From the IMG/VR virus record IMGVR_UViG_3300043410_001332, positions 1 to 35,134 of that record: a stretch of DNA of 35,134 nucleotides. One strand, written 5' to 3'. Below, in pieces: positions 12,081 to 22,405 of the stretch (position 1 is the first letter of the stretch; every line of letters starts with the position of its first letter). Under the pieces are notes generated by a model. The model had not been told where the DNA came from. It saw nothing but the letters and a program-made list of their open reading frames with translations, and made no database searches. The DNA comes from a virus. The position numbers and the translations under genes were made by a program.

Positions 12081-12098
12081 TTCGTTATTATGTATAAT
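12070..12098 (+). promoter_or_regulatory. Promoter opening the array, leaderless start
   Basis: A weak -35 AAGACA (12070-12075, four of six to TTGACA), a 17-nt spacer and TATAAT (12093-12098). Six nucleotides later comes ATG 12105 at the predicted +1. Confidence 0.65.
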
Positions 12099-12104
12099 AA
12101 ACAC

Positions 12105-12281
12105 ATGAGCACAATTATTATTGAAGGTCCCGAAAGGGCAATTCGAGCAGGTACGTGGGCGGAGAATAACATTAAAGATACTTGGAATTTGAATTTAATG
12201 GATCCATTTTCTAACAATTATCATTTTACATTTTCCAATCCAGACGAAGCATCAATGTTTGCACTCAAATGGGCACAGTAA
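12105..12281 (+). CDS. Array member 1, FALKW family
   Basis: 58 aa, starting MSTIIIEGPERAI and ending in YHFTFSNPDEASMFALKWAQ, the full C-terminal motif. There is no W-C motif. ATG 12105 is preferred over the upstream in-frame 12090 because the -10 box at 12093 places +1 exactly on it; the mRNA would be leaderless. Function unknown. Confidence 0.7.
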   Translation: MSTIIIEGPERAIRAGTWAENNIKDTWNLNLMDPFSNNYHFTFSNPDEASMFALKWAQ

Positions 12282-12526
12282 AAGTTTTAGTTCATAAATT
12301 CTCATTAGGGGATGTTGACGATCCAGAAATATATGCGGCGCAGCCTATATATGAATGGCAACAGACTGAAGCTGGCAAATGGGTCATGGATCACAGCGTA
12401 GACACATACTGGTTGAAGCATAATGATTATCAGTCGTATAATTACCAATATAAAATTGTAGCAACATTAACTGAACAAGACGCAACCTACTTTGCATTAA
12501 AATATGATAACGCTGGAACATCATGA
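12269..12526 (+). CDS. Array member 2, divergent FALKY ending
   Basis: 85 aa. Its ATG lies inside the AAATGG coding for Lys-Trp of member 1, giving a 13-nt overlap. The end reads TLTEQDATYFALKYDNAGTS, a degenerate motif with Tyr for Trp and a short extension. Aromatic-rich. Function unknown. Confidence 0.65.
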   Translation: MGTVKVLVHKFSLGDVDDPEIYAAQPIYEWQQTEAGKWVMDHSVDTYWLKHNDYQSYNYQYKIVATLTEQDATYFALKYDNAGTS

Positions 12527-12740
12527 ATGGAATCGCATACGCAAAGTGCTCAAAGAAGAGTATGCGTGGAAGCCTAGCGTTCTGCTAATTCGTGAAACAA
12601 TGAAGCGTGAACTAGGATTCACTACACGTTATCACAGAGTGTACAAAGAGCAAACAGGGTACATCGAACGTGTATGTTTGGATTTCTATAATGATGCTAG
12701 TGAAAGCTGGTTTAGATTAAAGTACATGAACCGTGAGTGA
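12504..12740 (+). CDS. Array member 3, conserved small phage protein with FRLKY end
   Basis: 78 aa, starting MITLEHHEWNRIRK. Contains MKRELGFTTRYHRVYKE and ends LDFYNDASESWFRLKYMNRE. The end fits the array pattern loosely, and the body resembles small conserved proteins of T4-like phages. Overlaps member 2 by 23 nt. Function unknown. Confidence 0.65.
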   Translation: MITLEHHEWNRIRKVLKEEYAWKPSVLLIRETMKRELGFTTRYHRVYKEQTGYIERVCLDFYNDASESWFRLKYMNRE

Positions 12741-13104
12741 CATTTTTAAAATCAAAGCGATGTCTGCACCCCGGCAGGGGTTAAACTATTCTGTTTCGTG
12801 GGACGGACGTGGCATTGTAAGCAAGCAACAACAACTAACCAAAATTTGGAAGGCTGCGTTTGATGCTTGTAAAAAAGGCTTCCAAGTTGGATTTAGTTTT
12901 GATTCTGGCGAAGCTGTAAGAATTGATGCATCTGTAGCATATAGTGATCAATACCAAAGTGTTGATTATTTGATTCACTTGGTTTCAAAACACGGCGGCA
13001 TTGTTGGTGTAGGCTTTGCATATCGCGAAGAAGCAGAAGAATTTGTAGATGCAATGGAAAAACACATTGCATGGAACTTACTAAAGCGTGACTTCAATGA
13101 ATGA
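12733..13104 (+). CDS. Array-embedded protein 4, no LRW end
   Basis: 123 aa from GTG 12733, which overlaps the previous stop by 8 nt. The sequence alternates strands and helices (GRGIVSKQQQLTKIWKAAFD). Near the end, VGFAYREEAEEFVDAME resembles the F-x-F-x-x-E-x-D part of the array motif, but no LRW follows. It may be an extended relative or an unrelated insertion. Function unknown. Confidence 0.65.
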   Translation: MSDIFKIKAMSAPRQGLNYSVSWDGRGIVSKQQQLTKIWKAAFDACKKGFQVGFSFDSGEAVRIDASVAYSDQYQSVDYLIHLVSKHGGIVGVGFAYREEAEEFVDAMEKHIAWNLLKRDFNE

Positions 13105-13321
13105 TATATTTGCTCATTGGAAGGAACAGCGTTTTATTATTGCACCAGGTGATCTAGTGGACAACGAAAAGCTAGTTATCCTCACTGACTACAATTACTG
13201 GGCAGATAATACAGACGAGTTAATTGCTTGGTGTAAAGAACGCAATGTAGTTACACAAGGTATGACTGTAGTATTTCCCAATGATGTGTCTTTAACAGAA
13301 TTTGTACTGAGGTGGTCATGA
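13097..13321 (+). CDS. Array member 5, WCKE and FVLRWS motifs
   Basis: 74 aa from ATG 13097 (an upstream in-frame GTG at 13088 is less likely). Central LIAWCKERN and terminal VSLTEFVLRWS are present. CTGAGGTGG in its last codons is the ribosome binding site for the next gene, which starts inside TCATGA. First of a run of tightly coupled members. Confidence 0.75.
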   Translation: MNDIFAHWKEQRFIIAPGDLVDNEKLVILTDYNYWADNTDELIAWCKERNVVTQGMTVVFPNDVSLTEFVLRWS

Positions 13322-13701
13322 CAAATTACAATCCTAACACAGCCGCAAGTGTAACAGCTACGGCGCAAAAGATACTCATGCCAATGATTAGGCAAGTATA
13401 TCCTCAACTGTTAGCCCAAACTATTCTGGGCGTACAACCTATGACAGGGTCAGTTGGTGAAATCTTTACTATGAAGGGAAGTTACAAACCACAATCAAAA
13501 TACAAATTCAGTCGTGCTAAATGGTACTACGCAGACCATCGCTATGAAGATTATGATGATGTTATGGCATGGTGCACGGAACAGTTCGGTCCGCGACCTA
13601 GACATCCCGATGCATGGACACGCTGGACAGATGAACACATTGATCGTATTCGATTCCGTGATGAAAAAGACGCCGAGTGGTTTACATTGAGGTGGTCATG
13701 A
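13318..13701 (+). CDS. Array member 6, fused to a major-capsid-like (Gol region) segment
   Basis: 127 aa, about 50 longer than typical members. Residues about 17-56, including ILMPMIRQVYPQLL and LGVQPMTGSVGEIFTMK, closely resemble the start of the mature T4-type major capsid protein gp23. There VMGMVRR...P.LIA...GVQPM..PTG.VF.L is conserved. After a linker comes KYKFSRAKWYYAD, shared with member 21. Then come the array motifs MAWCTEQFGP, DAWTRW and a terminal FRDEKDAEWFTLRWS. The frame is continuous and the ATG is coupled to member 5. It is not a capsid pseudogene, because the rest of gp23 is absent and the downstream part is a normal array module. Function inferred only: capsid mimicry or decoy. 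Confidence 0.8.
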   Translation: MTNYNPNTAASVTATAQKILMPMIRQVYPQLLAQTILGVQPMTGSVGEIFTMKGSYKPQSKYKFSRAKWYYADHRYEDYDDVMAWCTEQFGPRPRHPDAWTRWTDEHIDRIRFRDEKDAEWFTLRWS

Positions 13702-13955
13702 GTTTATATACCCATGAAAGTTTAAAGCGTAAGCTAAAGAGTTTTGTGCCTGACGCACAGACTCCATCGGATGCCATTGCTGCTATTAAACGTAGCGGGC
13801 TATTTCAATCATGGCAATGGACCGGTGTTACTGAGTTTGGAATCGTATTAGGTTGGTGTGAAGAACACTTCGGCGACAACTACATTTGGAATTTTGAAAC
13901 TGTATACTTTAAACACGAAAGTGACTATACTGTATTTGCTTTGAGGTGGTCATGA
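13698..13955 (+). CDS. Array member 7
   Basis: 85 aa from ATG 13698 (TCATGA overlap; a longer in-frame extension lies wholly inside member 6). The N-terminal 45 residues (LKRKLKSFVPDAQTPSDA) are helical and unlike other members. Then LGWCEEHFGDN and the terminal FKHESDYTVFALRWS. TTGAGGTGG at the end serves the next gene. Confidence 0.75.
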   Translation: MSLYTHESLKRKLKSFVPDAQTPSDAIAAIKRSGLFQSWQWTGVTEFGIVLGWCEEHFGDNYIWNFETVYFKHESDYTVFALRWS

Positions 13956-14230
13956 GCTTTAATGGTATGGATCGTTTGGCGCAAGCATGGAAGTACGGGA
14001 TACTTGATGATGACCACAATGCCAGACTTTATTTCTTTGAGCCGTTTGACGACCGTGGCTGGCTCAGAGATGATGAACACCGGTGGTATCGGTTAAACTG
14101 TTCATATCGGTTTGGTGATTGGATTGAACAACAGGACAAAGGCTCGTGGGAAGCATATGGTGGCAGACATCGTGCGATCTATCTTGTGCGTGATGACCTG
14201 TATTCTTTTATAAAGTTGAAGTGGCTATGA
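13952..14230 (+). CDS. Array member 8, FIKLKWL ending
   Basis: 92 aa, rich in W, Y, D and R (EPFDDRGWLRDDEHRWYRL). The W-C motif is absent; WIEQQDKGSW occupies its place. It ends LVRDDLYSFIKLKWL, with TTGAAGTGG coding the motif and a CTATGA junction. Function unknown. Confidence 0.7.
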   Translation: MSFNGMDRLAQAWKYGILDDDHNARLYFFEPFDDRGWLRDDEHRWYRLNCSYRFGDWIEQQDKGSWEAYGGRHRAIYLVRDDLYSFIKLKWL

Positions 14231-14490
14231 AACTTAAAACTGGCCGCAGTATTGGGTGGAACTTAGAGTACGCAACAATGGAAATTACACAACGAATTAC
14301 AGATGGTGCAGACTGCTATCCATGGCGCAAGACGTTTGCCCTGTGGCCGGTTAAAACCATTGGGGGCAAATGGCTGTGGTTACGTACAGTATACAAACAG
14401 AAATTCTGGGCTGTTTGGGGAGCAGGCTTCCATATGGAGCCATGCGTAGAATACGCAGAATTATTTGATATTTTAGCAAATGATCACTAA
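14227..14490 (+). CDS. Conserved small phage protein embedded in the array
   Basis: 87 aa without the array motif. RKTFALWPVKTIGGKWLWL, then YKQKFWAVWGAGFHMEP and EYAELFDIL look like a widespread small protein of T4-like phages; function unknown. It is coupled to member 8 by ATGA. It shows that ordinary phage genes sit as islands in the array. Confidence 0.72.
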   Translation: MKLKTGRSIGWNLEYATMEITQRITDGADCYPWRKTFALWPVKTIGGKWLWLRTVYKQKFWAVWGAGFHMEPCVEYAELFDILANDH

Positions 14491-14734
14491 ATGGCGTGTA
14501 CGCAATGATGCAACGGTGTTTGGATGTAAGTATTTTACATTAGAACCAAGTTGGATCGAGTGGGGCGATCGCAACAACGAATGGAATAGTTGGGTAGACT
14601 GGTGCCGGGAAACATATGGTGGCACCGGGGATTTATTTAATCAAGAACCTGTTGCAAGATGGTACGCAAATAGCTCAAGAATGTGGTTTCGAAATGAAGA
14701 AGATGCTATAATGTTCTTATTAAAATGGAGCTAA
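14480..14734 (+). CDS. Array member 10
   Basis: 84 aa. Central WVDWCRETYGG and terminal FRNEEDAIMFLLKWS. The ATG overlaps the preceding gene by 11 nt. The motif is coded TTAAAATGG, and the next start follows the stop after one base, so this junction lacks the GAGG overlap. Confidence 0.75.
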   Translation: MITKWRVRNDATVFGCKYFTLEPSWIEWGDRNNEWNSWVDWCRETYGGTGDLFNQEPVARWYANSSRMWFRNEEDAIMFLLKWS

Positions 14735-14735
14735 C

Positions 14736-15032
14736 ATGGCAACTGAAATTAAACTGGATCGCAAACACCACGACAAACTTGTAGAAATTGAATCATGGTG
14801 CCGGGAACGTTTTGGGCTCGGCAGTCGCCGCTTTGTTAAAAATACATGGCTTGGTATGGATGATTGGTTCTACTACGAAGAACGGGTAGAGCACGTTCAA
14901 GAGCTAACTGAAGAACAAATTGCAGAAGGCGAAACACTGCACGTTGATGCAAGCGACGACGAGGAAAGTGATTTGATCTTTGTTTTCCGTCGCGATGCCG
15001 ACGCTTCTGTGTTTAGCCTAAAATGGCAGTAA
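14736..15032 (+). CDS. Array member 11, acidic insert
   Basis: 98 aa. ESWCRERFGLG lies near the N-terminus, then an acidic stretch (VQELTEEQIAEGETLHVDAS, DDEESD) unique to this member, then FRRDADASVFSLKWQ. GGAG in the previous gene's last codons precedes ATG 14736. The next ATG lies inside its AAATGG. Confidence 0.75.
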   Translation: MATEIKLDRKHHDKLVEIESWCRERFGLGSRRFVKNTWLGMDDWFYYEERVEHVQELTEEQIAEGETLHVDASDDEESDLIFVFRRDADASVFSLKWQ

Positions 15033-15277
15033 CATACAAAACTAATTCAAAATTTCCGGGTGTTAATTTTCCCGTGTTGCATCGTGTGGTTTACGCACAC
15101 ACGCTAGATGGGGTACCGGCGCAATGGCAAATAAGTTACAAAGACTATAGAGTTAACGAGTGGCTTAAAGAAAACTGCAAGCATCCTTACTATCACAGTC
15201 CCGGGTATCTTCGCGAAAAGTTCATCGAGTTCGAATGTGATTATGACGCTATGATGTTTGCATTGAGGTGGGCATGA
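15023..15277 (+). CDS. Array member 12
   Basis: 84 aa, starting inside the Lys-Trp codons of member 11 (10-nt overlap). VNEWLKENCKHPYY replaces W-C-x-E-x-F-G; it ends FECDYDAMMFALRWA. TTGAGGTGG with GCATGA couples the next gene. Confidence 0.75.
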   Translation: MAVTYKTNSKFPGVNFPVLHRVVYAHTLDGVPAQWQISYKDYRVNEWLKENCKHPYYHSPGYLREKFIEFECDYDAMMFALRWA

Positions 15278-15486
15278 CACTACGCACCGACATTCGTCCA
15301 TATTTTCCCAAGATTGCTAATTGGTATTGGGATAATAAGGATCCAGCAACTGATGGGAGCATCTGGGATTGTCTCAAACGCGACCACGATGTTGTTAAGA
15401 TTGGGTCAATGGGTAGCAAGCCTGAGTTATGGGTTTCGTTCCCAGATGAGCAGCACCTGACTATGTTTATGTTGAGGTGGTCATGA
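15274..15486 (+). CDS. Array member 13
   Basis: 70 aa. NWYWDNKDPATDG and IWDCLKRDHDV stand in for the central motif; it ends FPDEQHLTMFMLRWS. Coupled on both sides by GAGGTGG and ATGA. Confidence 0.75.
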   Translation: MTLRTDIRPYFPKIANWYWDNKDPATDGSIWDCLKRDHDVVKIGSMGSKPELWVSFPDEQHLTMFMLRWS

Positions 15487-15722
15487 TTAAGCAGGGCTTG
15501 TTTGATGATTATCACGTTATGGTAGAAGTTGGCGACCTGGAGCGACCACGCCGTCGAGAAATAATCAAATGGTGCAAGGAAAATATTGCACTAAACGATG
15601 GCAACGGTCCATTGGGTCATTGCAGGAAATACGCATTCACATATGAGCTATTTCCCAATTACACAAACTTTGTTTTTGATCGTGAGGCAGATGCATTAAT
15701 GTTTGCACTGAAGTTTGCATGA
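15483..15722 (+). CDS. Array member 14, FALKFA ending
   Basis: 79 aa. IIKWCKENIALND is central; it ends FDREADALMFALKFA, with Phe in place of Trp. The junction reads CTGAAGTTTGCATGA, a weakened ribosome binding site matching the changed codon. Confidence 0.72.
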   Translation: MIKQGLFDDYHVMVEVGDLERPRRREIIKWCKENIALNDGNGPLGHCRKYAFTYELFPNYTNFVFDREADALMFALKFA

Positions 15723-15925
15723 GACATTTGAAGAAAGAACTGTGGCCACATTGTGTATCAGTAAATTCGGACTTAAAACGAGAAATAACCCCAATTGAAG
15801 AATGGTTAGGTGAACAGCTAGGACCTTTTAAAGATCGGTGGAATTGTGTATACCAACACAACCGTACAGATTTTTACTTTCGCAACGGGCAGGATGCTAC
15901 ACTATTTGCACTGAAATACTCATGA
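15719..15925 (+). CDS. Array member 15, FALKYS ending
   Basis: 68 aa. IEEWLGEQLGPFKDRW matches the central motif with Leu for Cys; it ends FRNGQDATLFALKYS with Tyr for Trp. Junction CTGAAATACTCATGA. Confidence 0.72.
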   Translation: MRHLKKELWPHCVSVNSDLKREITPIEEWLGEQLGPFKDRWNCVYQHNRTDFYFRNGQDATLFALKYS

Positions 15926-16137
15926 AGTACTATAATCTCAACAAAACATTCTACGATGGGTTCGCTTATCAGATTCCCTTCAACGTACCCGTTCATTGGG
16001 CTATCGTTGATTGGGTTTGTGAAGATATCGATAATCGTCGTTGGAGGCGTGGTCTGCACGCCAGTGATCGTGACAAGCATTATGTTGAGTTGAAAAACGA
16101 AGAAGACCTAGTATACTTTATGCTTAAATGGGCATAA
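15922..16137 (+). CDS. Array member 16, last of the first transcription unit
   Basis: 71 aa from ATG 15922 (the longer in-frame start at 15838 lies inside member 15). IVDWVCEDID is central; it ends KNEEDLVYFMLKWA. No gene is coupled to its end, and its motif is coded CTTAAATGG without the GAGG, in line with the ribosome-binding explanation for the AGG codon. Confidence 0.72.
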   Translation: MKYYNLNKTFYDGFAYQIPFNVPVHWAIVDWVCEDIDNRRWRRGLHASDRDKHYVELKNEEDLVYFMLKWA

Positions 16138-16148
16138 CATCGTTTATT

Positions 16149-16176
16149 TTGATTGAAATGGATATAATGCTATAAT
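16149..16176 (+). promoter_or_regulatory. Internal array promoter, leaderless start
   Basis: TTGATT (16149-16154), a 16-nt spacer and TATAAT (16171-16176), then 6 nt to ATG 16183. A second TATAAT at 16163-16168 lies 8 nt upstream. This starts the second array transcription unit. Confidence 0.7.
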
Positions 16177-16182
16177 AATGGC

Positions 16183-16380
16183 ATGACTTACAATGTTTGT
16201 ATCAATATTAAACGTGATCAAGTTCTCCCAGATGTTTTTACTTGGCTAATGCATCAAGATTTGGTCCAGCATGAAGACTGGGACTTTACCAAGCCAGACT
16301 ATTTCAAAGACGACTGGGATTATACATTCAAGTTTAACCAGCAGGAACATGCAACTCTGTTTGCATTGAGGTGGGCATGA
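16183..16380 (+). CDS. Array member 17, first of the second unit
   Basis: 65 aa. VFTWLMHQDLVQ is in the central position; it ends FNQQEHATLFALRWA. The start codon is at the predicted +1 of its promoter, so initiation is leaderless. The ending GAGGTGG serves member 18. Confidence 0.75.
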   Translation: MTYNVCINIKRDQVLPDVFTWLMHQDLVQHEDWDFTKPDYFKDDWDYTFKFNQQEHATLFALRWA

Positions 16381-16613
16381 CAACAAAACTTATAGTGAAA
16401 CCAAGGACAAAACGTCCTTATTGGATTGATGTTTGTCCACCACACAACTGGGATAAGTCTGCTGTGTGGCACTGGTGCATTGCAAACTTTGGTCACAGGA
16501 ACTACAGAACTGACAATCCTCGTTGGACTGCAAACATGAAATATAGTTGGGATGGCGGATTCAAGTTTCGTGACGAGCAAGATGCATTGTTGTTTATGTT
16601 GAGGTGGGCATGA
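16377..16613 (+). CDS. Array member 18
   Basis: 78 aa. HWCIANFGHRNYR and PRWTANMKYSW are central; it ends FRDEQDALLFMLRWA. A good representative of the consensus, coupled on both sides by GAGGTGGGCATGA. Confidence 0.77.
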   Translation: MTTKLIVKPRTKRPYWIDVCPPHNWDKSAVWHWCIANFGHRNYRTDNPRWTANMKYSWDGGFKFRDEQDALLFMLRWA

Positions 16614-16804
16614 TTGAACTCAAAATAGATAAAAGACTGCGTAATGCGTATGGTGAGCGAGGCACCCAAGTTACATGGCAATGGTGTGTGGATAACTTTG
16701 GGCTACCAGAACCAAACGGCAAGCGTTGGGCATGGGATACTATGCGAACATTTTGGTTTCATAAAGAAGAAGATGCTACACTGTTTGCATTGAGGTGGCT
16801 ATGA
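16610..16804 (+). CDS. Array member 19
   Basis: 64 aa. Near-minimal unit: TWQWCVDNFGLPEPNGKRW and a terminal FHKEEDATLFALRWL. Coupled on both sides by GAGGTGG. Confidence 0.77.
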   Translation: MIELKIDKRLRNAYGERGTQVTWQWCVDNFGLPEPNGKRWAWDTMRTFWFHKEEDATLFALRWL

Positions 16805-16983
16805 GTAAATTTGCAATTGACAAGAGATACAATCACATTGGTATTAATTTCACTTTCTCTGCAGAAGAGTGGGATGAAATTTATGACTGGTGTAACAACC
16901 GACCTGAATACGATGCTTTTGCAACCGGTATAGTCTATCGTACTGAACAAGATTTAACAGCATTTTTGTTGAGGTGGGCATGA
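16801..16983 (+). CDS. Array member 20
   Basis: 60 aa, among the smallest. IYDWCNNRPEYDAF is central; it ends YRTEQDLTAFLLRWA. Coupled on both sides by GAGGTGG. Confidence 0.76.
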   Translation: MSKFAIDKRYNHIGINFTFSAEEWDEIYDWCNNRPEYDAFATGIVYRTEQDLTAFLLRWA

Positions 16984-17453
16984 AAAAACAAACATTGGTA
17001 GTAGACTTGGAAAGCATGGCTAATGTGCCCCAGTATCAAAAAGACATTTTTGACAAATGGGTTGGGGGAATCGCTGCCGGCACAATGAATGTAATCAGCG
17101 TAGGTCGCCAGACTGGCAAGAGTATGATTTCTTCATACTACTATTCGGCATCAAAACAGCGAAGCATTTCTGTAATGGGTTCTAACTTATGTAAAGAAAT
17201 CTTTTTACCAATGCATCCTGCTACAAAACCCAAGTATCAATTCAGTCGGGCTAAATGGTATAGTGCTGAGATAACGGGTCATGCAACGTGGCGTATGTCA
17301 GACGAGTATAACGAAATCATTGAATGGTGTACTGAACATTTTGGAAAACATCCCGATAAACCAGATGCGTGGAGTCGTTGGTGGGTCGGTCTAGGAGTTA
17401 TCAACTTCCGCGACGAAAAGGATTTTGTGTTTTATAAGTTGAGGTGGGCATGA
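16980..17453 (+). CDS. Array member 21, fused to a P-loop segment
   Basis: 157 aa, the longest motif-bearing member. Residues about 14-60 contain VPQYQKDIFDKWVGGI and NVISVGRQTGKSMISSYYY, with GRQTGKS matching a Walker A loop. The setting loosely recalls the T4 large terminase gp17 (YQRDM ... SRQLGKT). No Walker B follows, so it is unlikely to hydrolyse ATP alone. Then KYQFSRAKWYSAE, shared with member 6, IIEWCTEHFGKHP, DAWSRW and FRDEKDFVFYKLRWA. Coupled on both sides by GAGGTGG. A mimic or fragment of a P-loop protein fused to an array module is the best description; function unknown. Confidence 0.75.
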   Translation: MKKQTLVVDLESMANVPQYQKDIFDKWVGGIAAGTMNVISVGRQTGKSMISSYYYSASKQRSISVMGSNLCKEIFLPMHPATKPKYQFSRAKWYSAEITGHATWRMSDEYNEIIEWCTEHFGKHPDKPDAWSRWWVGLGVINFRDEKDFVFYKLRWA

Positions 17454-17689
17454 AAGTTTATACTAAGAATACCGAGCGTCCTATTTCAGAAATGACTGAG
17501 ATATGGAAATGGATGACTGACATGTTTGGTCCCCCAGAAGCACACAATGGTAACAAGAAGCGTTGGACTTATGGTAAAGATCATCCAGGATTCTTGGGCA
17601 GTGAACTAATTGACGGTACTTGGGACATTGAATGGTTTGACTTCCGTGACGAGGAAGATGCTACATTGTTTGCACTAAAGTGGCTGTAA
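17450..17689 (+). CDS. Array member 22
   Basis: 79 aa. IWKWMTDMFGPPEAHNGNKK with RW following matches the central motif (Met for Cys); it ends FRDEEDATLFALKWL. The motif is coded CTAAAGTGG and the stop overlaps the next start as TAATG. Confidence 0.75.
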   Translation: MKVYTKNTERPISEMTEIWKWMTDMFGPPEAHNGNKKRWTYGKDHPGFLGSELIDGTWDIEWFDFRDEEDATLFALKWL

Positions 17690-17967
17690 TGTTAAAAACA
17701 AAACGCAAAATATCAGATTTGGAACGTGACGAAATTCACCGTAGCCGTCCATTGATGAATTACAGTGGATTTAGTGATAAGTGGACAAGTGTGCAAGTAG
17801 GGGATCAATTTGCCGGTAGCTGGCAATGGGGTCAAGGGCCGTTTTACGATTGGTGTGATGAGAATTGCACTGACATGTATAATATTGTTAAGTATGATCG
17901 TGACACAGTTTACGGTCGTTTTAGAAATCCAGCAGACGCCACAGCGTTTGCATTGAGGTGGTCATGA
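17689..17967 (+). CDS. Array member 23
   Basis: 92 aa from ATG 17689. FYDWCDENCTDMYN is central; it ends FRNPADATAFALRWS. The N-terminal 50 residues are member-specific (LERDEIHRSRPLMNYSGF). GAGGTGGTCATGA couples it to the next, motif-free gene. Confidence 0.75.
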   Translation: MLKTKRKISDLERDEIHRSRPLMNYSGFSDKWTSVQVGDQFAGSWQWGQGPFYDWCDENCTDMYNIVKYDRDTVYGRFRNPADATAFALRWS

Positions 17968-18332
17968 GAACAAGTATTTGGTATCGCACAGAAGAACAGT
18001 CACCGGACAAAAGTGACTACTACCTAAGTTATCGCGGTTTTGGTATGGGCGGCATGAGCGACTATGATCATGCTAACGGCTATATGTACTACGACAAGAA
18101 AACTGATACGTGGTACGATTACAATGACATGCGTGATCCTGCTATTGTGTATTACTGGACTGACGCTGACCCGGAGCAGTGGTGCGAAGAGGACCCACCT
18201 AGCATTAAGATTCGCAAAGGTTATTCACCAAAGAGTAGCATACACGACATTCCGGCTGTACATGATGCATGGGAAGATGTACAGGAAGCAATTAAACGTT
18301 ACGAAACAGTAAAAGCACTATGTCAAAAATGA
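17964..18332 (+). CDS. Array-embedded aromatic/acidic phage protein
   Basis: 122 aa without the array motif; very rich in Y, D and W (DYYLSYRGFGMGGMSDYDHA). It contains YYWTDADPEQWCEEDPP, which resembles a conserved T4-like phage protein, then a C-terminal helix. Coupled to member 23. Function unknown. Confidence 0.72.
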   Translation: MRTSIWYRTEEQSPDKSDYYLSYRGFGMGGMSDYDHANGYMYYDKKTDTWYDYNDMRDPAIVYYWTDADPEQWCEEDPPSIKIRKGYSPKSSIHDIPAVHDAWEDVQEAIKRYETVKALCQK

Positions 18333-18628
18333 AACTGGTTAAGCAATGGTATTTGTCGTTCTTTGATACACAGGACATTGAGTACATTAGCGACCTAGGC
18401 TGTGACTACGAAATCAATGATACAGTTAAAACCCAAGATGTAACTGCACCAAACGGGCAAATTTATCGATATGTTGTAGAGCGAGATCTACATTATGGTA
18501 TCTATATTTTTACCGAAAATGACAAGCAAGAATCAATGATTCAGTTAAAATACAGTGAGAACCTTACATTGATGAGAATGTGGTACGCAAACGAATGGAC
18601 ACGATATGAACTGCAACCTGACATATAA
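18320..18628 (+). CDS. Array-embedded protein with a displaced motif
   Basis: 102 aa. ATG 18320 overlaps the previous gene by 13 nt; ATG 18329 (ATGA overlap) is an equal alternative. Around residue 72, FTENDKQESMIQLKYS resembles the array end motif, but about 21 residues follow it (MRMWYANEWTRYELQPDI). It may be a member that lost its stop and gained a tail. Function unknown. Confidence 0.65.
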   Translation: MSKMKLVKQWYLSFFDTQDIEYISDLGCDYEINDTVKTQDVTAPNGQIYRYVVERDLHYGIYIFTENDKQESMIQLKYSENLTLMRMWYANEWTRYELQPDI

Positions 18629-19055
18629 CGAACTACGTGATCACTTAGATCGCTATAGCACAGACCCGATGGTGCATAAGTTGCTCGAGTACATTAACGA
18701 CAAAGAAGAAAACATCATCGAAGGTCTAATTGACATAGGCATGGATCCTATTAATGGCCGAATCGAAGGAGACAATGGATGGAGCTTACCCGGGCCCTAT
18801 ATATCCGAACTTCGTAACGATGTCGATTACTATCAGCGTGAATCCCAGGAATGGGAAGAAAAGTATGAGGACATGAAAGAGGAACGTAATCGCTTAAAAG
18901 CTCGTAGTGTTGCAGACTTGTTAGCCGACATGAATGAAAAGATCAAACGTGCCGAAGCAGAAGCACGGGAAGTAGATCGCATTGCCACCCAGCTCAAAGC
19001 ACGTAACAAGGATCTTGAAGAAAAGATCAATGTATGGAAAGTATTAGAATCGTAA
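18606..19055 (+). CDS. Coiled-coil phage protein embedded in the array
   Basis: 149 aa. The N-terminus (LTYNELRDHLDRYSTDPMVH) resembles a short domain common in phage hypothetical proteins. Residues about 78-145 are a charged heptad-like coiled coil (EWEEKYEDMKEERNRLKA). No array motif. Overlaps the upstream gene by 23 nt and the next by 22. Function unknown. Confidence 0.72.
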   Translation: MNCNLTYNELRDHLDRYSTDPMVHKLLEYINDKEENIIEGLIDIGMDPINGRIEGDNGWSLPGPYISELRNDVDYYQRESQEWEEKYEDMKEERNRLKARSVADLLADMNEKIKRAEAEAREVDRIATQLKARNKDLEEKINVWKVLES

Positions 19056-19264
19056 AGCAATACGGCATAGCCATTGAAAGCTGGCCATGGCAACAGCAAG
19101 CTGATGTACGAAACTGGCTGGGCAAAAACTTCGGTCCCGGTGGTTGGGGCGAAAAGAACTGTGACAAGCGTTGGGGCCAACAATCTGATTACGGACTAGA
19201 AAACTTGTACATGGACGAAGATGTGTATACTGCTTATTTGTTGAGGTGGGACCATGCCAGATAA
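19034..19264 (+). CDS. Array member 27, extended LRW end
   Basis: 76 aa. VRNWLGKNFGPGGWG is central; it ends MDEDVYTAYLLRWDHAR, the motif plus three residues. TTGAGGTGG precedes the next ATG by 5 nt. Confidence 0.72.
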   Translation: MESIRIVKQYGIAIESWPWQQQADVRNWLGKNFGPGGWGEKNCDKRWGQQSDYGLENLYMDEDVYTAYLLRWDHAR

Positions 19265-19496
19265 ATTTCGTGTTGATCTCGGAACACTGTGGAAAGAACC
19301 ATGGCCCAAATACTTTGATAATTTCTACAATCATTGCAAAAACATTGCAGTTAAAGGCAAGTATCATGTGGACACAGTTGCAAACTACGAACTGCGCCCA
19401 ATGGGTGGTAAGCTAATTAAGACCTCAACACAAGGCTGGTACTTGCGCTGGGACAACGAAGCCAACCATACTGCATTTGTACTGAGGTGGAGTTAA
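19254..19496 (+). CDS. Array member 28
   Basis: 80 aa. FYNHCKNIAVKG stands in for the central motif, and WYLRWDNEANHTAFVLRWS closes the protein. CTGAGGTGG, then AGTTAATG, couples the next gene. Confidence 0.74.
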   Translation: MPDKFRVDLGTLWKEPWPKYFDNFYNHCKNIAVKGKYHVDTVANYELRPMGGKLIKTSTQGWYLRWDNEANHTAFVLRWS

Positions 19497-19693
19497 TGGA
19501 AGTATATTATATCACGTGGGATGGTGCTGACTATCGACGTTGGTGTGTTACTTGCCCAAGTTTGCCAGCAAATGATCAATATGAACGCAGGCAATGGTGT
19601 TACTCACAGGACATGGATTTTGTAAACATTGGAGTCAGATTCTGGTTTGCAGAAGAAAAAGAAGTAATGTTGTTTAAGTTGAGGTGGTCATGA
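19496..19693 (+). CDS. Array member 29
   Basis: 65 aa from ATG 19496 (TAATG overlap). RRWCVTCPSLP and RQWCYSQDMDF give two W-C elements; it ends FAEEKEVMLFKLRWS. Coupled to the next by TTGAGGTGGTCATGA. Confidence 0.75.
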   Translation: MEVYYITWDGADYRRWCVTCPSLPANDQYERRQWCYSQDMDFVNIGVRFWFAEEKEVMLFKLRWS

Positions 19694-19878
19694 CTCTTAC
19701 ACCAAAATACGGTTACGGCCCAAATTGTTATGTTGTGAGGTATCTTTGGGAGTTTGATCGGATCCGACGCTGGATGCACGAAAATGGAGTCGACTATTGG
19801 CACGTAAGTTCTGGACCAGAAGGCACAGGATTTCAAGTAACATCTAATGTAGAATGGTTTAACTTAAAATGGCTGTAA
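19690..19878 (+). CDS. Array member 30
   Basis: 62 aa. IRRWMHENGVDYW is central; it ends VTSNVEWFNLKWL. The next ATG lies inside its AAATGG, a 10-nt overlap. Confidence 0.72.
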   Translation: MTLTPKYGYGPNCYVVRYLWEFDRIRRWMHENGVDYWHVSSGPEGTGFQVTSNVEWFNLKWL

Positions 19879-20072
19879 CAGAAATACAATTTGGTAAGGA
19901 CAAGTACCATGAAGTCGAAACTATGATAAAGTGGTGTTATGAGCATTTTGGCGAAGGTGGCTGGCTAGCCAAGCCCGGTAGTAAATGGTCAGTTGACTCA
20001 GGATTTGGCAACACTTTCTTTATTTTTAAAAATGAAAAAGATGCTACAATATTTGCATTGAGATGGAAATGA
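19869..20072 (+). CDS. Array member 31
   Basis: 67 aa. IKWCYEHFGEGGWLAKPGSK followed by W is close to the consensus; it ends FKNEKDATIFALRWK. Motif codons TTGAGATGGAAATGA provide two possible starts for the next gene. Confidence 0.76.
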   Translation: MAVTEIQFGKDKYHEVETMIKWCYEHFGEGGWLAKPGSKWSVDSGFGNTFFIFKNEKDATIFALRWK

Positions 20073-20281
20073 CCTATTGGCGAGAACTATACACCGACGA
20101 TTACCTAATGCGAGTTTTAAACAAAAAATATTGGCCGCACCAACATGTAGTTAACGATGTTTCGTTAGCTGAGAAATGGTGTTATGAAAACTTTAAAAGT
20201 TCCAATTGGCGCAATGTCGGAAAAACTTTTGCATTTAAACACGGCCAAGATGCCACACTGTTTGCATTGAAATGGATTTAA
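20069..20281 (+). CDS. Array member 32
   Basis: 70 aa from ATG 20069 (ATGA overlap); ATG 20063 in the same frame is possible. EKWCYENFKSSNW is central; it ends FKHGQDATLFALKWI. The next ATG lies inside its AAATGG. Confidence 0.74.
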   Translation: MTYWRELYTDDYLMRVLNKKYWPHQHVVNDVSLAEKWCYENFKSSNWRNVGKTFAFKHGQDATLFALKWI

Positions 20282-20484
20282 AATTAACGTGGCACAAACT
20301 TAACCGGTATCCTCGGGGCCGATGGTTGCAAGCCTTCTGGCCAGATTTCACTGACATAGAACCAACTCTAAATGAAATTCAGCGTTGGTGTAAAGATAAC
20401 AATTGCGGCACACGAATGAGTTACGATATGTGGCGATTCAAAACTCGTGCAGAAGTAACAGCATTTTTGTTGAGGTGGTCATGA
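20272..20484 (+). CDS. Array member 33
   Basis: 70 aa. IQRWCKDNNCGTRM is central; it ends FKTRAEVTAFLLRWS. Starts inside the Lys-Trp codons of member 32; ends with TTGAGGTGGTCATGA. Confidence 0.75.
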   Translation: MDLKLTWHKLNRYPRGRWLQAFWPDFTDIEPTLNEIQRWCKDNNCGTRMSYDMWRFKTRAEVTAFLLRWS

Positions 20485-20669
20485 GCAACGCAGTATATCC
20501 TTACAGAATCGAATACCCCAGAACATCTGGGTGGTGGGACTCAGATTGGCGCAACATATCCGATTGGTGCAATGAATGTATTGCTCCAGGTGAATGGAAT
20601 TACTACGGCGAGTCGTTTGTCTTTGCAAATGAAGCAGACTACATGCTGTTCAAGTTGAAGTGGCTATGA
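20481..20669 (+). CDS. Array member 34
   Basis: 62 aa from ATG 20481 (the in-frame start at 20403 lies inside member 33). ISDWCNECIAPGEW is central; it ends FANEADYMLFKLKWL, coded TTGAAGTGG with CTATGA. Confidence 0.75.
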   Translation: MSNAVYPYRIEYPRTSGWWDSDWRNISDWCNECIAPGEWNYYGESFVFANEADYMLFKLKWL

Positions 20670-20899
20670 GTCATTTACCACGCAATGGTCGTTATGAAAT
20701 CTTTACTCATGGGTTTAAAACACACTGTTTTGACGACCCAAGTCTCGATGAGTTTAGAACACCCGAAGGCATGTTTGAATGGATACGTGAGCAAGACACG
20801 AAATATTGGGAACCGATGCTAGATGCACCGGAAAGCAATGTTGCGTTATACTTGCAACCAGAATTATATACATTGTGGAAACTGAAATGGGCAAAGTAA
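20666..20899 (+). CDS. Array member 35
   Basis: 77 aa. MFEWIREQDTKYWEP is central; it ends LQPELYTLWKLKWAK, a looser motif with one extra residue. The next gene starts directly after the stop, without overlap. Confidence 0.7.
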   Translation: MSHLPRNGRYEIFTHGFKTHCFDDPSLDEFRTPEGMFEWIREQDTKYWEPMLDAPESNVALYLQPELYTLWKLKWAK

Positions 20900-21133
20900 A
20901 TGAATAGTAAACAACGCAGAAATCAACGAGTATTTACACACGAAGTTACTCTAGTGTGCAAGAACGACGAACGTTACTTTGAATTTGAACGCAGAGTAGA
21001 CGAAGCAAAAGGTTGGCTACAATGGCGTACTAAGCGCAAACAGTATACGTTGGGTCAACGTGGCTACGACCGCCAAGTCTTCAAATTCCGCCAGCCAGGA
21101 TTGGCATCTATGTTTGCGTTAAAGTGGACATGA
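20900..21133 (+). CDS. Array member 36, basic
   Basis: 77 aa, strongly basic (SKQRRNQRVF, RTKRKQYTLGQRGYDR). AKGWLQW replaces the W-C motif; it ends FRQPGLASMFALKWT, coded TTAAAGTGG, with ACATGA coupling. Confidence 0.72.
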   Translation: MNSKQRRNQRVFTHEVTLVCKNDERYFEFERRVDEAKGWLQWRTKRKQYTLGQRGYDRQVFKFRQPGLASMFALKWT

Positions 21134-21408
21134 TAGATAATTCATATATTGAAAAAATGGCCAATGATCTTGCGACAATGATTAACGAAGAAATTGTTAA
21201 CCAAGCTATAAGGAAAGATGTTATGTTAAAAGGTTGGACTTGTGCGCCATTTACTACTGATCGATTTGTGTATCCCTTTGAATTTCGTCTTGACGAAGTG
21301 ACTGCTTGGCTACATACTAATACTACAGGCGAATATCGAGTATTCGGCAAAGAGTTTTGGTTTAAAAGTAAAAAAGATTTAACAGCATTTATTTTGAAAT
21401 GGGAATAG
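21130..21408 (+). CDS. Array member 37, last member
   Basis: 92 aa. The N-terminal helix (YIEKMANDLATMINEEIVNQ, residues about 6-25) is unlike other members. VTAWLHTNTTGEY is central; it ends FKSKKDLTAFILKWE. Its motif is coded TTGAAATGG, again without GAGG at the array end. The next gene starts one base after the stop. Confidence 0.73.
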   Translation: MIDNSYIEKMANDLATMINEEIVNQAIRKDVMLKGWTCAPFTTDRFVYPFEFRLDEVTAWLHTNTTGEYRVFGKEFWFKSKKDLTAFILKWE

Positions 21409-21409
21409 T

Positions 21410-22405
21410 ATGAAATCACTTGTATGTGATCAATTTGCGTCAATTGACGCATTAGAATTTAAAGACTTACCTGATCCGGTACCGGGCGAAGGTGAAGTAG
21501 TAGTTGATGTGGCGTACTCGTCAATTAACTTTCCGGATACGCTAATTGTACAGGGTTTGTATCAACTTAAGCCCGAGTTACCGTTTACTCCGGGGCATGA
21601 ATGTTCGGGCATTGTATCAGCAATCGGACCAGGTGTAACTAATTGTAAAGTAGGCGACAGAGTATATGTTAGTTCCACTATTGGAAGCTTTTCGGAAAAG
21701 CTAAAAATCACATCAAATCGTTGCCGTGTATTGCCGCCAGATGTAAGTTTACGTGATGCTTCTGTGCTAGCTGTTGCGTACATTACTTCGTATCATGCAC
21801 TTAAAAACAAAGCAAACTTGCAACCAGGCAAGACAGTATTAGTACTGGGTGCCAGTGGCGGTACTGGAACTGCGGCAATTGAAATTGCAAAGACTATCGG
21901 AGCCAGAGTTATTGCTGCTGCAAGTACACAAGAAAAGCTAGACTTCTGCAAACGTATGGGCGCCGACGAAGTTATTAACTACGACACCGAAGACCTTAAA
22001 GCAAGAGTTTGGGAATTAACAAACAAGCAAGGTGTGGATGTAGTGTATGACCCAGTTGGTGATCGGTATGCCGAGCCCGCAATGCGTTCACTAGGATATG
22101 GTGGCAAGTACTTAGTTGTTGGCTTTGCTGCTGGGGCAATTCCGCACATTCCACTTAACTTAGCACTGTTAAGCGAACGCAGTATTATTGGTGTTTATGT
22201 TGGTGCATGGGCACCACGTGCTGGTAAAGAAATGTTCATGGCAGCGCAAGCGTTAAATTCATGGACAAAAATGGGCAAAATTAAGCCCGGTGCGTCTATT
22301 ACAAAAACGTTTAAGTTTGATGAAGTAAAAGAAGCACTAAAGTTTGCAACTACAAGGAATCTTATTGGTAAAGTATTAATCGAAATCAACCCTAATTTAG
22401 GTTGA
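21410..22405 (+). CDS. Zinc-independent quinone oxidoreductase-like MDR enzyme
   Basis: 331 aa, medium-chain dehydrogenase/reductase of the zeta-crystallin (quinone oxidoreductase) type. The N-terminal GroES-like part has GEGEVVVDVAYSSINFPDTL and TPGHECSGIVSAIG. The nucleotide-binding Rossmann part has VLVLGASGGTGTAAIEIAK (about residue 143) and MGADEVINYDTEDL. The cysteine cluster for structural zinc is absent, as in quinone reductases. It likely uses NADPH to reduce quinones or enals. Such a full-length metabolic enzyme is unusual in a phage and probably came from a host. It follows the array by one base and could be co-transcribed with it. Confidence 0.9.
   Translation: MKSLVCDQFASIDALEFKDLPDPVPGEGEVVVDVAYSSINFPDTLIVQGLYQLKPELPFTPGHECSGIVSAIGPGVTNCKVGDRVYVSSTIGSFSEKLKITSNRCRVLPPDVSLRDASVLAVAYITSYHALKNKANLQPGKTVLVLGASGGTGTAAIEIAKTIGARVIAAASTQEKLDFCKRMGADEVINYDTEDLKARVWELTNKQGVDVVYDPVGDRYAEPAMRSLGYGGKYLVVGFAAGAIPHIPLNLALLSERSIIGVYVGAWAPRAGKEMFMAAQALNSWTKMGKIKPGASITKTFKFDEVKEALKFATTRNLIGKVLIEINPNLG

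Follow-up and report, generated by a model that had tools for sequence, protein, structure and literature searches.

Phage operons are known to contain overlapping gene pairs in which the stop codon of one gene and the start codon of the next meet in the sequence ATGA and translation of the two is coupled, and in integron-like arrays a conserved repeat links single-gene cassettes that can be swapped for one another. Jumbo phages can expand families of small proteins, as in Bacillus phage G, which has about 35 copies of a zinc ribbon (PMC7824862). On the side of bacterial defense, three systems that respond to capsid proteins are CapRel, Thoeris, and Lit (PMC9712102, PMC11312562, PMC3014915), and in the Gol/Lit system of Escherichia coli e14 a short region of the major capsid protein gp23 is by itself an in vivo signal, acting through EF-Tu. 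This region, Gol, is 29 residues long and is reported to be the most conserved part of gp23 and to bind EF-Tu (PMC3014915). Here we describe a tandem array of small overlapping genes that shares features with each of these systems. It lies in a window of 35,134 bases, the whole of IMG/VR virus record IMGVR_UViG_3300043410_001332, and the origin of the record bears out the phage context assumed in an earlier, sequence-only reading of this DNA.

The array comprises 37 small open reading frames (ORFs) at 12090-21408 of the plus strand, which mostly overlap by 4 bp (ATGA) or by 10 bp. A profile that draws solely on the members of other phages and omits the window recognizes 32 of these ORFs at E<0.01, and 30 of the 32 at E<0.001; among shuffled sequences, 9 of 1110 score at the 0.01 level. 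Trimming the final 10 residues leaves 27 ORFs that match at E<0.01 (shuffled sequences, 7 of 1110), so homology extends beyond the shared terminal motif, and the members constitute one family. Pairwise BLAST inside the window is concordant with membership by profile. The sequence-only reading had proposed about 32 paralogs of a single, old family at 12105-21408, and its count, coordinates, and claim of homology are borne out, the resemblance not being restricted to the last 6-8 residues. Its unit length of 60-90 amino acids is exceeded by two longer chimeras, 13318-13701 and 16980-17453. Five ORFs within the array are not members (12733-13104, 14227-14490, 17964-18332, 18329-18628, and 18606-19055). 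One of them, 14227-14490, has orthologs 49-81% identical in the array loci L004, L005, L006, L010, L040, and L043.

Beyond the window, an alignment search of IMG/VR yielded 45 loci, and a profile of 63 positions, a search of the kind that the earlier reading had suggested, then gave 455 members in 47 loci, with a maximum of 31 members in 10.6 kb. Several large IMG/VR contigs hold about 30-40 members each. Sinorhizobium phage Phosso carries 36 members at E<=0.001, or 46 if the threshold is relaxed to E<=0.05, and they are distributed over several clusters; seven weak members occur in Agrobacterium phage Atu_ph07. Eight other named phages (T4, S-PM2, phiM12, phiM9, CcrColossus, HTVC008M, phiW-14, and PAU) have none, and when single members were compared with named phages by tblastn, an array-like context was seen in Phosso only. 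None of 50,697 phage records gave a megablast match to the array, and one pattern scan of bacterial genomes produced 17 pattern matches of which none was confirmed, so that no cellular or prophage copy is evident at that sensitivity. When 111 members were scanned against Pfam, PHROGs, NCBIfam, and PADLOC, only scattered matches of single members appeared (best E 0.003), and PADLOC offered no convincing match to anti-defense or counter-defense families. Together with the Protein Data Bank (PDB) searches given below, these scans agree with the earlier statement that the family has no known annotated function; the domain is without a curated counterpart in these four collections and is an undescribed protein domain. 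Like the expansions of jumbo phages, the array places tens of paralogs of one small domain in a genome. It differs in that the domain is, by description, another one, and a dual-coded joint, cassette turnover, and excerpts of self proteins are not reported in the passage on that expansion (PMC7824862).

Structure prediction, likewise suggested by the earlier reading, gives the same fold for two members. AlphaFold2 models 16610-16804 as beta-alpha-beta-beta-alpha with a predicted local distance difference test (pLDDT) score of 85, and the domain of chimera 13318-13701 has the same elements at pLDDT of about 84-93, preceded by a disordered N-terminal segment (pLDDT about 48). Good structural matches, with template modeling scores of up to 0.8, are to uncharacterized proteins of uncultured phages only. 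A profile search of the PDB for sequence relatives reached a best E of 0.47; among solved structures Foldseek gave no match at E<=0.001 and VIA a best Z of 5.1 for a common small alpha/beta arrangement, such a lack of matches not being proof of absence. The conserved columns are F, L, W, F, D (a helix cap), A, and R/K, that is, core hydrophobic residues and the terminal R/K-W. Since only the hydrophobic core, the helix-cap aspartate, and the terminal basic residue are conserved, we infer that members are binding scaffolds rather than enzymes, and an enzymatic role was rejected because no catalytic residue is invariant among these columns. The idea that acidic members mimic DNA was also rejected, as the mean net charge is -0.9 (range -13 to +11).

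The end of each typical gene has an unusual arrangement, wherein one short stretch of DNA encodes the last helix of one protein and the signals that begin the next. The C-terminal codons read TTT-GCA-TTG-AGG-TGG-TCA-TGA, of which TTG-AGG-TGG-TCA-TGA specifies L-R-W-S-stop; the same letters contain GAGGTGG, a Shine-Dalgarno-like stretch located a few bases upstream of the ATG of ATGA at which the next gene starts. The window has 15 instances of the nucleotide pattern of this joint (TTYNNNYTNARRTGGNNATGA), all of them inside the array, with 0 expected from shuffles. In a second type of joint, the next ATG is formed from A-TGG itself (offset -1), an arrangement counted at 56-59 junctions when all loci are included. 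Most members truly start at the ATG of an ATGA overlap rather than at a GTG a few codons upstream. Codon choice follows this arrangement in the loci taken together: where the next ATG lies 5-12 nucleotides from the tryptophan codon, the motif arginine is encoded by AGG in 137 of 151 cases (91%), compared with 16 of 33 in the absence of a nearby start and 70 of 879 (8%) for arginine codons elsewhere in the domain. The basic residue itself is retained in 57 of 58 motifs without a nearby start. Because R/K persists whether or not another gene follows, the residue seems to be retained for the sake of the protein and the codon for that of the ribosome, and the idea that R/K is conserved merely to supply a Shine-Dalgarno sequence was rejected on these grounds. 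Neighboring genes of the array are probably translationally coupled. The stop/start overlap and the ribosome-binding site within the upstream gene are as in the ATGA pairs of other phage operons, whereas here the overlap is a repeated motif of some 20 joints and is also the place of gene exchange.

This exchange is evident when close relatives are compared. Even where long stretches of two phages are about 92-99% identical, one may have whole members that the other lacks, and the breaks lie in or beside the joint. Between L031 and L037, one gene is absent and the sequence switches within tttgcattgaggtgg; the pairs L018/L031 and L033/L037 differ by one to a few genes, again with break points in or adjoining the joint. 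Orthologs of seven window members occur in L009 in a different order, in keeping with the earlier description of the family as shuffled. The joint is thus a repeat at or next to which the array loses, gains, and reorders entire genes, and recombination between two joints leaves the operon intact. As in integron-like arrays, exchangeable single-gene cassettes are separated by a conserved repeat, but here the repeat is coding, about 20 bp long, and intragenic, no integrase or attC site was seen, although no search aimed at one was made, and exchange resembles ordinary recombination between repeats. Within orthologous pairs of members the median ratio of nonsynonymous to synonymous change (dN/dS) is 0.18, compared with 0.13 for other ORFs of the same loci. 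The subfamilies are old, conserved, and re-sorted rather than under diversifying selection, and to that extent the earlier term 'fast-evolving' does not apply.

A minority of members carry at the N-terminus an excerpt of a conserved motif found in core proteins of the phage itself, taken from one of two regions of gp23, a P-loop, NrdA, or PolB. The N-terminus of chimera 13318-13701 is recognized as gp23 by Pfam (PF07068, 2.6e-12, above the cut-off) and by PHROGs (phrog_138, 6e-13), and the excerpt is 45% identical to gp23 of the phages G008 and G021. This ORF is not a full-length capsid protein, as it includes about 50-60 of some 390 gp23 residues. Its residues 8-56 align with residues 49-97 of gp23 from relative phages, covering T4 gp23 93-121 (PAVMGMVRRAIPNLIAFDICGVQPMNSPT), which aligns with the class A gp23 excerpts and which we take to be the Gol region. 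By alignment, the gp23 excerpts of the array thus appear to span the same N-terminal segment. The difference is that Gol sits in the real capsid protein and triggers defense, whereas the array has diverged copies, each attached to a different domain, which the phage retains. Chimeras of this type are conserved in L073-L076, and dN/dS in the gp23 part, the best-sampled excerpt, is about 0.1-0.2, as in the domain, revealing purifying selection; the DNA is free at synonymous sites (synonymous divergence, pS, 0.45-0.72) while the protein is kept. The gp23 chimera is therefore not a recent accident, and the same dN/dS values led us to reject the idea that these chimeras are pseudogene relics.

A wider comparison matched 571 members against 456 larger proteins of two phages, with reversed members as the control. 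Only gp23 is matched by more than two members (14 members, in regions 25-101 and 151-217), and no protein is matched by more than one reversed member. A gp23 profile run against large relatives likewise finds the full gp23 plus several small array ORFs with its N-terminal or central segment. Among the 571 members, patterns written from examples already seen give 10 instances of the gp23 Gol motif (0.065 in shuffles), 6 of the gp23 central helix (EIDxEI; 0.05), 8 of the P-loop (GRQTGKS type; 0.135), 5 of the NrdA motif (SNLCxEI; 0.015), and 1 of PolB motif A (DxxSxYPS; 0), with further PolB cases in L157-L162. In L157 and L159 (4001-4270), which are close relatives, the PolB core D-N-D-I-S-S-M-Y-P is kept while the residues directly after it vary. 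The NrdA likeness is to the motif only: relative to NrdA of G008 and G021, SNLCxEIxLP is present in full in 16980-17453 and L067 and in part in L009, L074, and L163, and the catalytic domain was not found, no member giving a BLAST match to NrdA at 27 bits or more. A Walker A motif in matching context is found in L071, which is 52% identical over 27 residues to a 479-amino-acid helicase-like protein of G008. A terminase was one candidate source of the P-loop in 16980-17453, and for L071 and G008 a helicase is the better fit. In a related phage, the large terminase gene (L089, G005:C1 27381-30875) has a seeming intein just before CSFITADETLI. Excerpts also interchange on a given scaffold, since one subfamily carries gp23, or P-loop plus NrdA, or NrdA alone, and another carries PolB, gp23, or, as in window member 20069-20281, none.

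A second system with the same excerpts exists in phage G010, where a cluster of small ORFs on the minus strand (L103, G010:C1 255610-261200) shares a different short motif, VW[DE][KR]L, which is present in 11 of its small ORFs compared with 0.9 expected by shuffling. Among these ORFs are some with gp23 segments, again from both regions, as well as a P-loop and PolB motif A, the last in a peptide (DNDISSLYPSMM) close to DNDISSMYPG of G008; one ORF has a sigma-like protein. The gp23 chimera with this second motif is in no other contig searched. The dual-coded joint, the turnover of whole genes there, and the excerpts of self proteins all go beyond the sequence-only reading.

The features of the array, all on the plus strand, are as follows.

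12090-21408, plus strand: whole array, 37 ORFs of which 32 are members by the profile from other phages
12090-12740, plus strand: three leading members by profile (12090-12281, 12269-12526, 12504-12740), with orthologs at the corresponding place in L009, L022, L038, and L044 (39-65% identity)
13097-13321, plus strand: member (profile E 5e-9), ortholog in L009 72% identical
13301-13321, plus strand: example joint, TTTGTACTGAGGTGGTCATGA, holding F-x-L-R-W-S, Shine-Dalgarno GAGGTGG, stop TGA, and the next ATG in 21 bp
13318-13701, plus strand: chimeric member, N-terminal gp23 excerpt plus family domain (PF07068, phrog_138)
13339-13485, plus strand: gp23 excerpt, residues 8-56 of the chimera, by alignment with gp23; predicted to be disordered
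13698-13955, plus strand: member by profile
13952-14230, plus strand: weaker member (profile E 4e-4)
14480-14734, plus strand: member by profile, without an excerpt; its relatives in L010 and L040 have an N-terminal P-loop excerpt
14736-16137, plus strand: six members (14736-15032, 15023-15277, 15274-15486, 15483-15722, 15719-15925, 15922-16137)
16183-16983, plus strand: four members (16183-16380, 16377-16613, 16610-16804 with predicted structure, 16801-16983)
16980-17453, plus strand: chimeric member, P-loop excerpt plus NrdA-like active-site excerpt plus family domain; the L009 ortholog, 70% identical, also has an N-terminal extension
17103-17123, plus strand: P-loop motif GRQTGKS in the excerpt of 16980-17453
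17181-17210, plus strand: SNLCKEIFLP, a match to the NrdA active-site motif (MSNLCTEINLPT in G008 NrdA)
17450-17967, plus strand: two members by profile (17450-17689, 17689-17967)
17964-19055, plus strand: three ORFs outside the family by profile (17964-18332, 18329-18628, 18606-19055)
19034-20072, plus strand: five members by profile (19034-19264, 19254-19496, 19496-19693, 19690-19878, 19869-20072)
19858-19878, plus strand: second joint type, TTTAACTTAAAATGGCTGTAA, next ATG inside the K-W codons (AA-ATG-G), 10-bp overlap
20069-20281, plus strand: member without an excerpt; other members of its subfamily carry PolB motif A (G008/L160) or gp23 Gol (L009)
20272-21133, plus strand: four members by profile (20272-20484, 20481-20669, 20666-20899, 20900-21133)
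21130-21408, plus strand: member with the N-terminal helix INEEIVN

Relatives of the last member in L094 and L095 have a gp23 central-helix excerpt, and its own helix INEEIVN shows a likeness to this excerpt that is weak when taken alone. One of the few non-overlapping gaps of the array, 16138-16182, has a TG-extended -10-like site with TATAAT ending at 16176; a sigma-70 promoter scan as a whole did no better than shuffles. Directly after the array, 21410-22405 looks by eye like a host-like metabolic gene for a quinone oxidoreductase or alcohol dehydrogenase. At 388-2895, a nucleotidyltransferase plus Nudix-like ORF is followed by a nicotinamide phosphoribosyltransferase-like ORF, by eye a set for nicotinamide adenine dinucleotide (NAD) salvage, which is noteworthy because some capsid-sensing defenses deplete NAD+.

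We tentatively favor the hypothesis that the array is a cassette repertoire of binders that act within the host cell, in which members with excerpts are perhaps decoys. The architecture itself is shown: overlapping gene cassettes, each for one small predicted beta-alpha-beta-beta-alpha domain, are linked through last-helix codons that double as a Shine-Dalgarno-like stretch and the next start, and genes come, go, and change order at or beside these joints while the operon stays intact. As to function, members would be released into the infected cell as a repertoire, each directed at another, mostly host, protein. The bulk of them would act by shape and not by an excerpt, while excerpt members would present epitopes that sensors or host factors recognize on the real phage proteins, and in this way titrate or mis-signal them. 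Terminases are known to trigger Avs, and decoys suggest themselves because the excerpted proteins include known triggers of bacterial defenses; we also count for this the G010 cluster, in which another shared motif accompanies the same excerpts. With the sequence-only reading, we infer an arms-race role, to which the excerpts of sensor-targeted proteins lend indirect support. In a stricter form, which we judge rather unlikely, the recombinable operon would serve counter-immunity by 'epitope display', with conserved core-motif excerpts on a common scaffold saturating or misleading sensors, and the G010 cluster would be either independent or the result of peptide sharing.

Several observations weigh against the favored hypothesis. 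Most members have no recognizable excerpt, and the low dN/dS is not the sign of an active arms race. The family was found in no more than two isolated phages, so there is little host genetics to draw on. The motif counts, which follow patterns written after examples had been seen, are not blind tests, and ascertainment could account for gp23, P-loop, NrdA, and PolB being the proteins and motifs that stand out, in that only highly conserved motifs are recognizable after divergence; fragments of other genes may be present unseen. Finally, since Gol is an activator of Lit, a protein that bears it could be detrimental to the phage instead of protective.

Host take-over without decoys is a somewhat unlikely explanation, in which members are small binders of host enzymes or regulators, and fragments captured by chance are kept as mere N-terminal extensions. 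T4 offers a parallel in its many small early proteins, the joints are recombination-prone, excerpts are absent from most members, and no anti-defense family was matched. Counting against it, the gp23 part is under purifying selection, the same motifs sit on several subfamilies and in G010 beside another shared motif, and the PolB core is kept where its flanks vary (L157 compared with L159). In another explanation, competition between phages, the excerpts would be dominant-negative poisons of capsid assembly, packaging, or replication in co-infecting relatives, with other members hitting further competitor proteins. Capsid protein, P-loop ATPase, ribonucleotide reductase, and polymerase are targets that a competitor shares, and the two gp23 regions fall in intersubunit elements of the HK97 fold. 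We consider such competition decidedly unlikely, as the phage's own proteins have the same motifs and would be poisoned as well, the excerpts are short, predicted to be disordered, and about 40-50% identical to gp23 of related phages, and active-site motifs are not interfaces.

It is quite improbable that members travel inside the capsid with the domain as their packaging tag. T4 does package small internal proteins, and gp23 segments could dock to the shell, but scans of curated families give no structural-protein signal in the domain, and the number and content of members vary between close relatives. A further explanation regards the fragments as left over from homing at intein or intron sites, or as decoy sites diverting it. 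Known intein sites coincide with three excerpt types (P-loop, NrdA active site, and PolB motif A), and the G005 terminase noted above seems to contain an intein. This account is highly improbable, given that gp23 is not a known intein host and that its excerpts keep the protein while synonymous sites are free, which means that a DNA target is not what is selected.

If the excerpts are incidental, the array is an accessory island of small genes with a new protein family. Whatever its function, the joint is unusually compact, uniting a protein helix, a ribosome-binding site, a start/stop overlap, and a recombination site, and it would explain how some 30 genes of one family are both kept and reshuffled. 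If the repertoire hypothesis is true, the array would offer a natural protein library for screening against defense systems, and its excerpts would be a direct list of motifs that bacterial immunity may recognize, namely gp23 Gol, the gp23 central helix, the P-loop, the NrdA active site, and PolB motif A.

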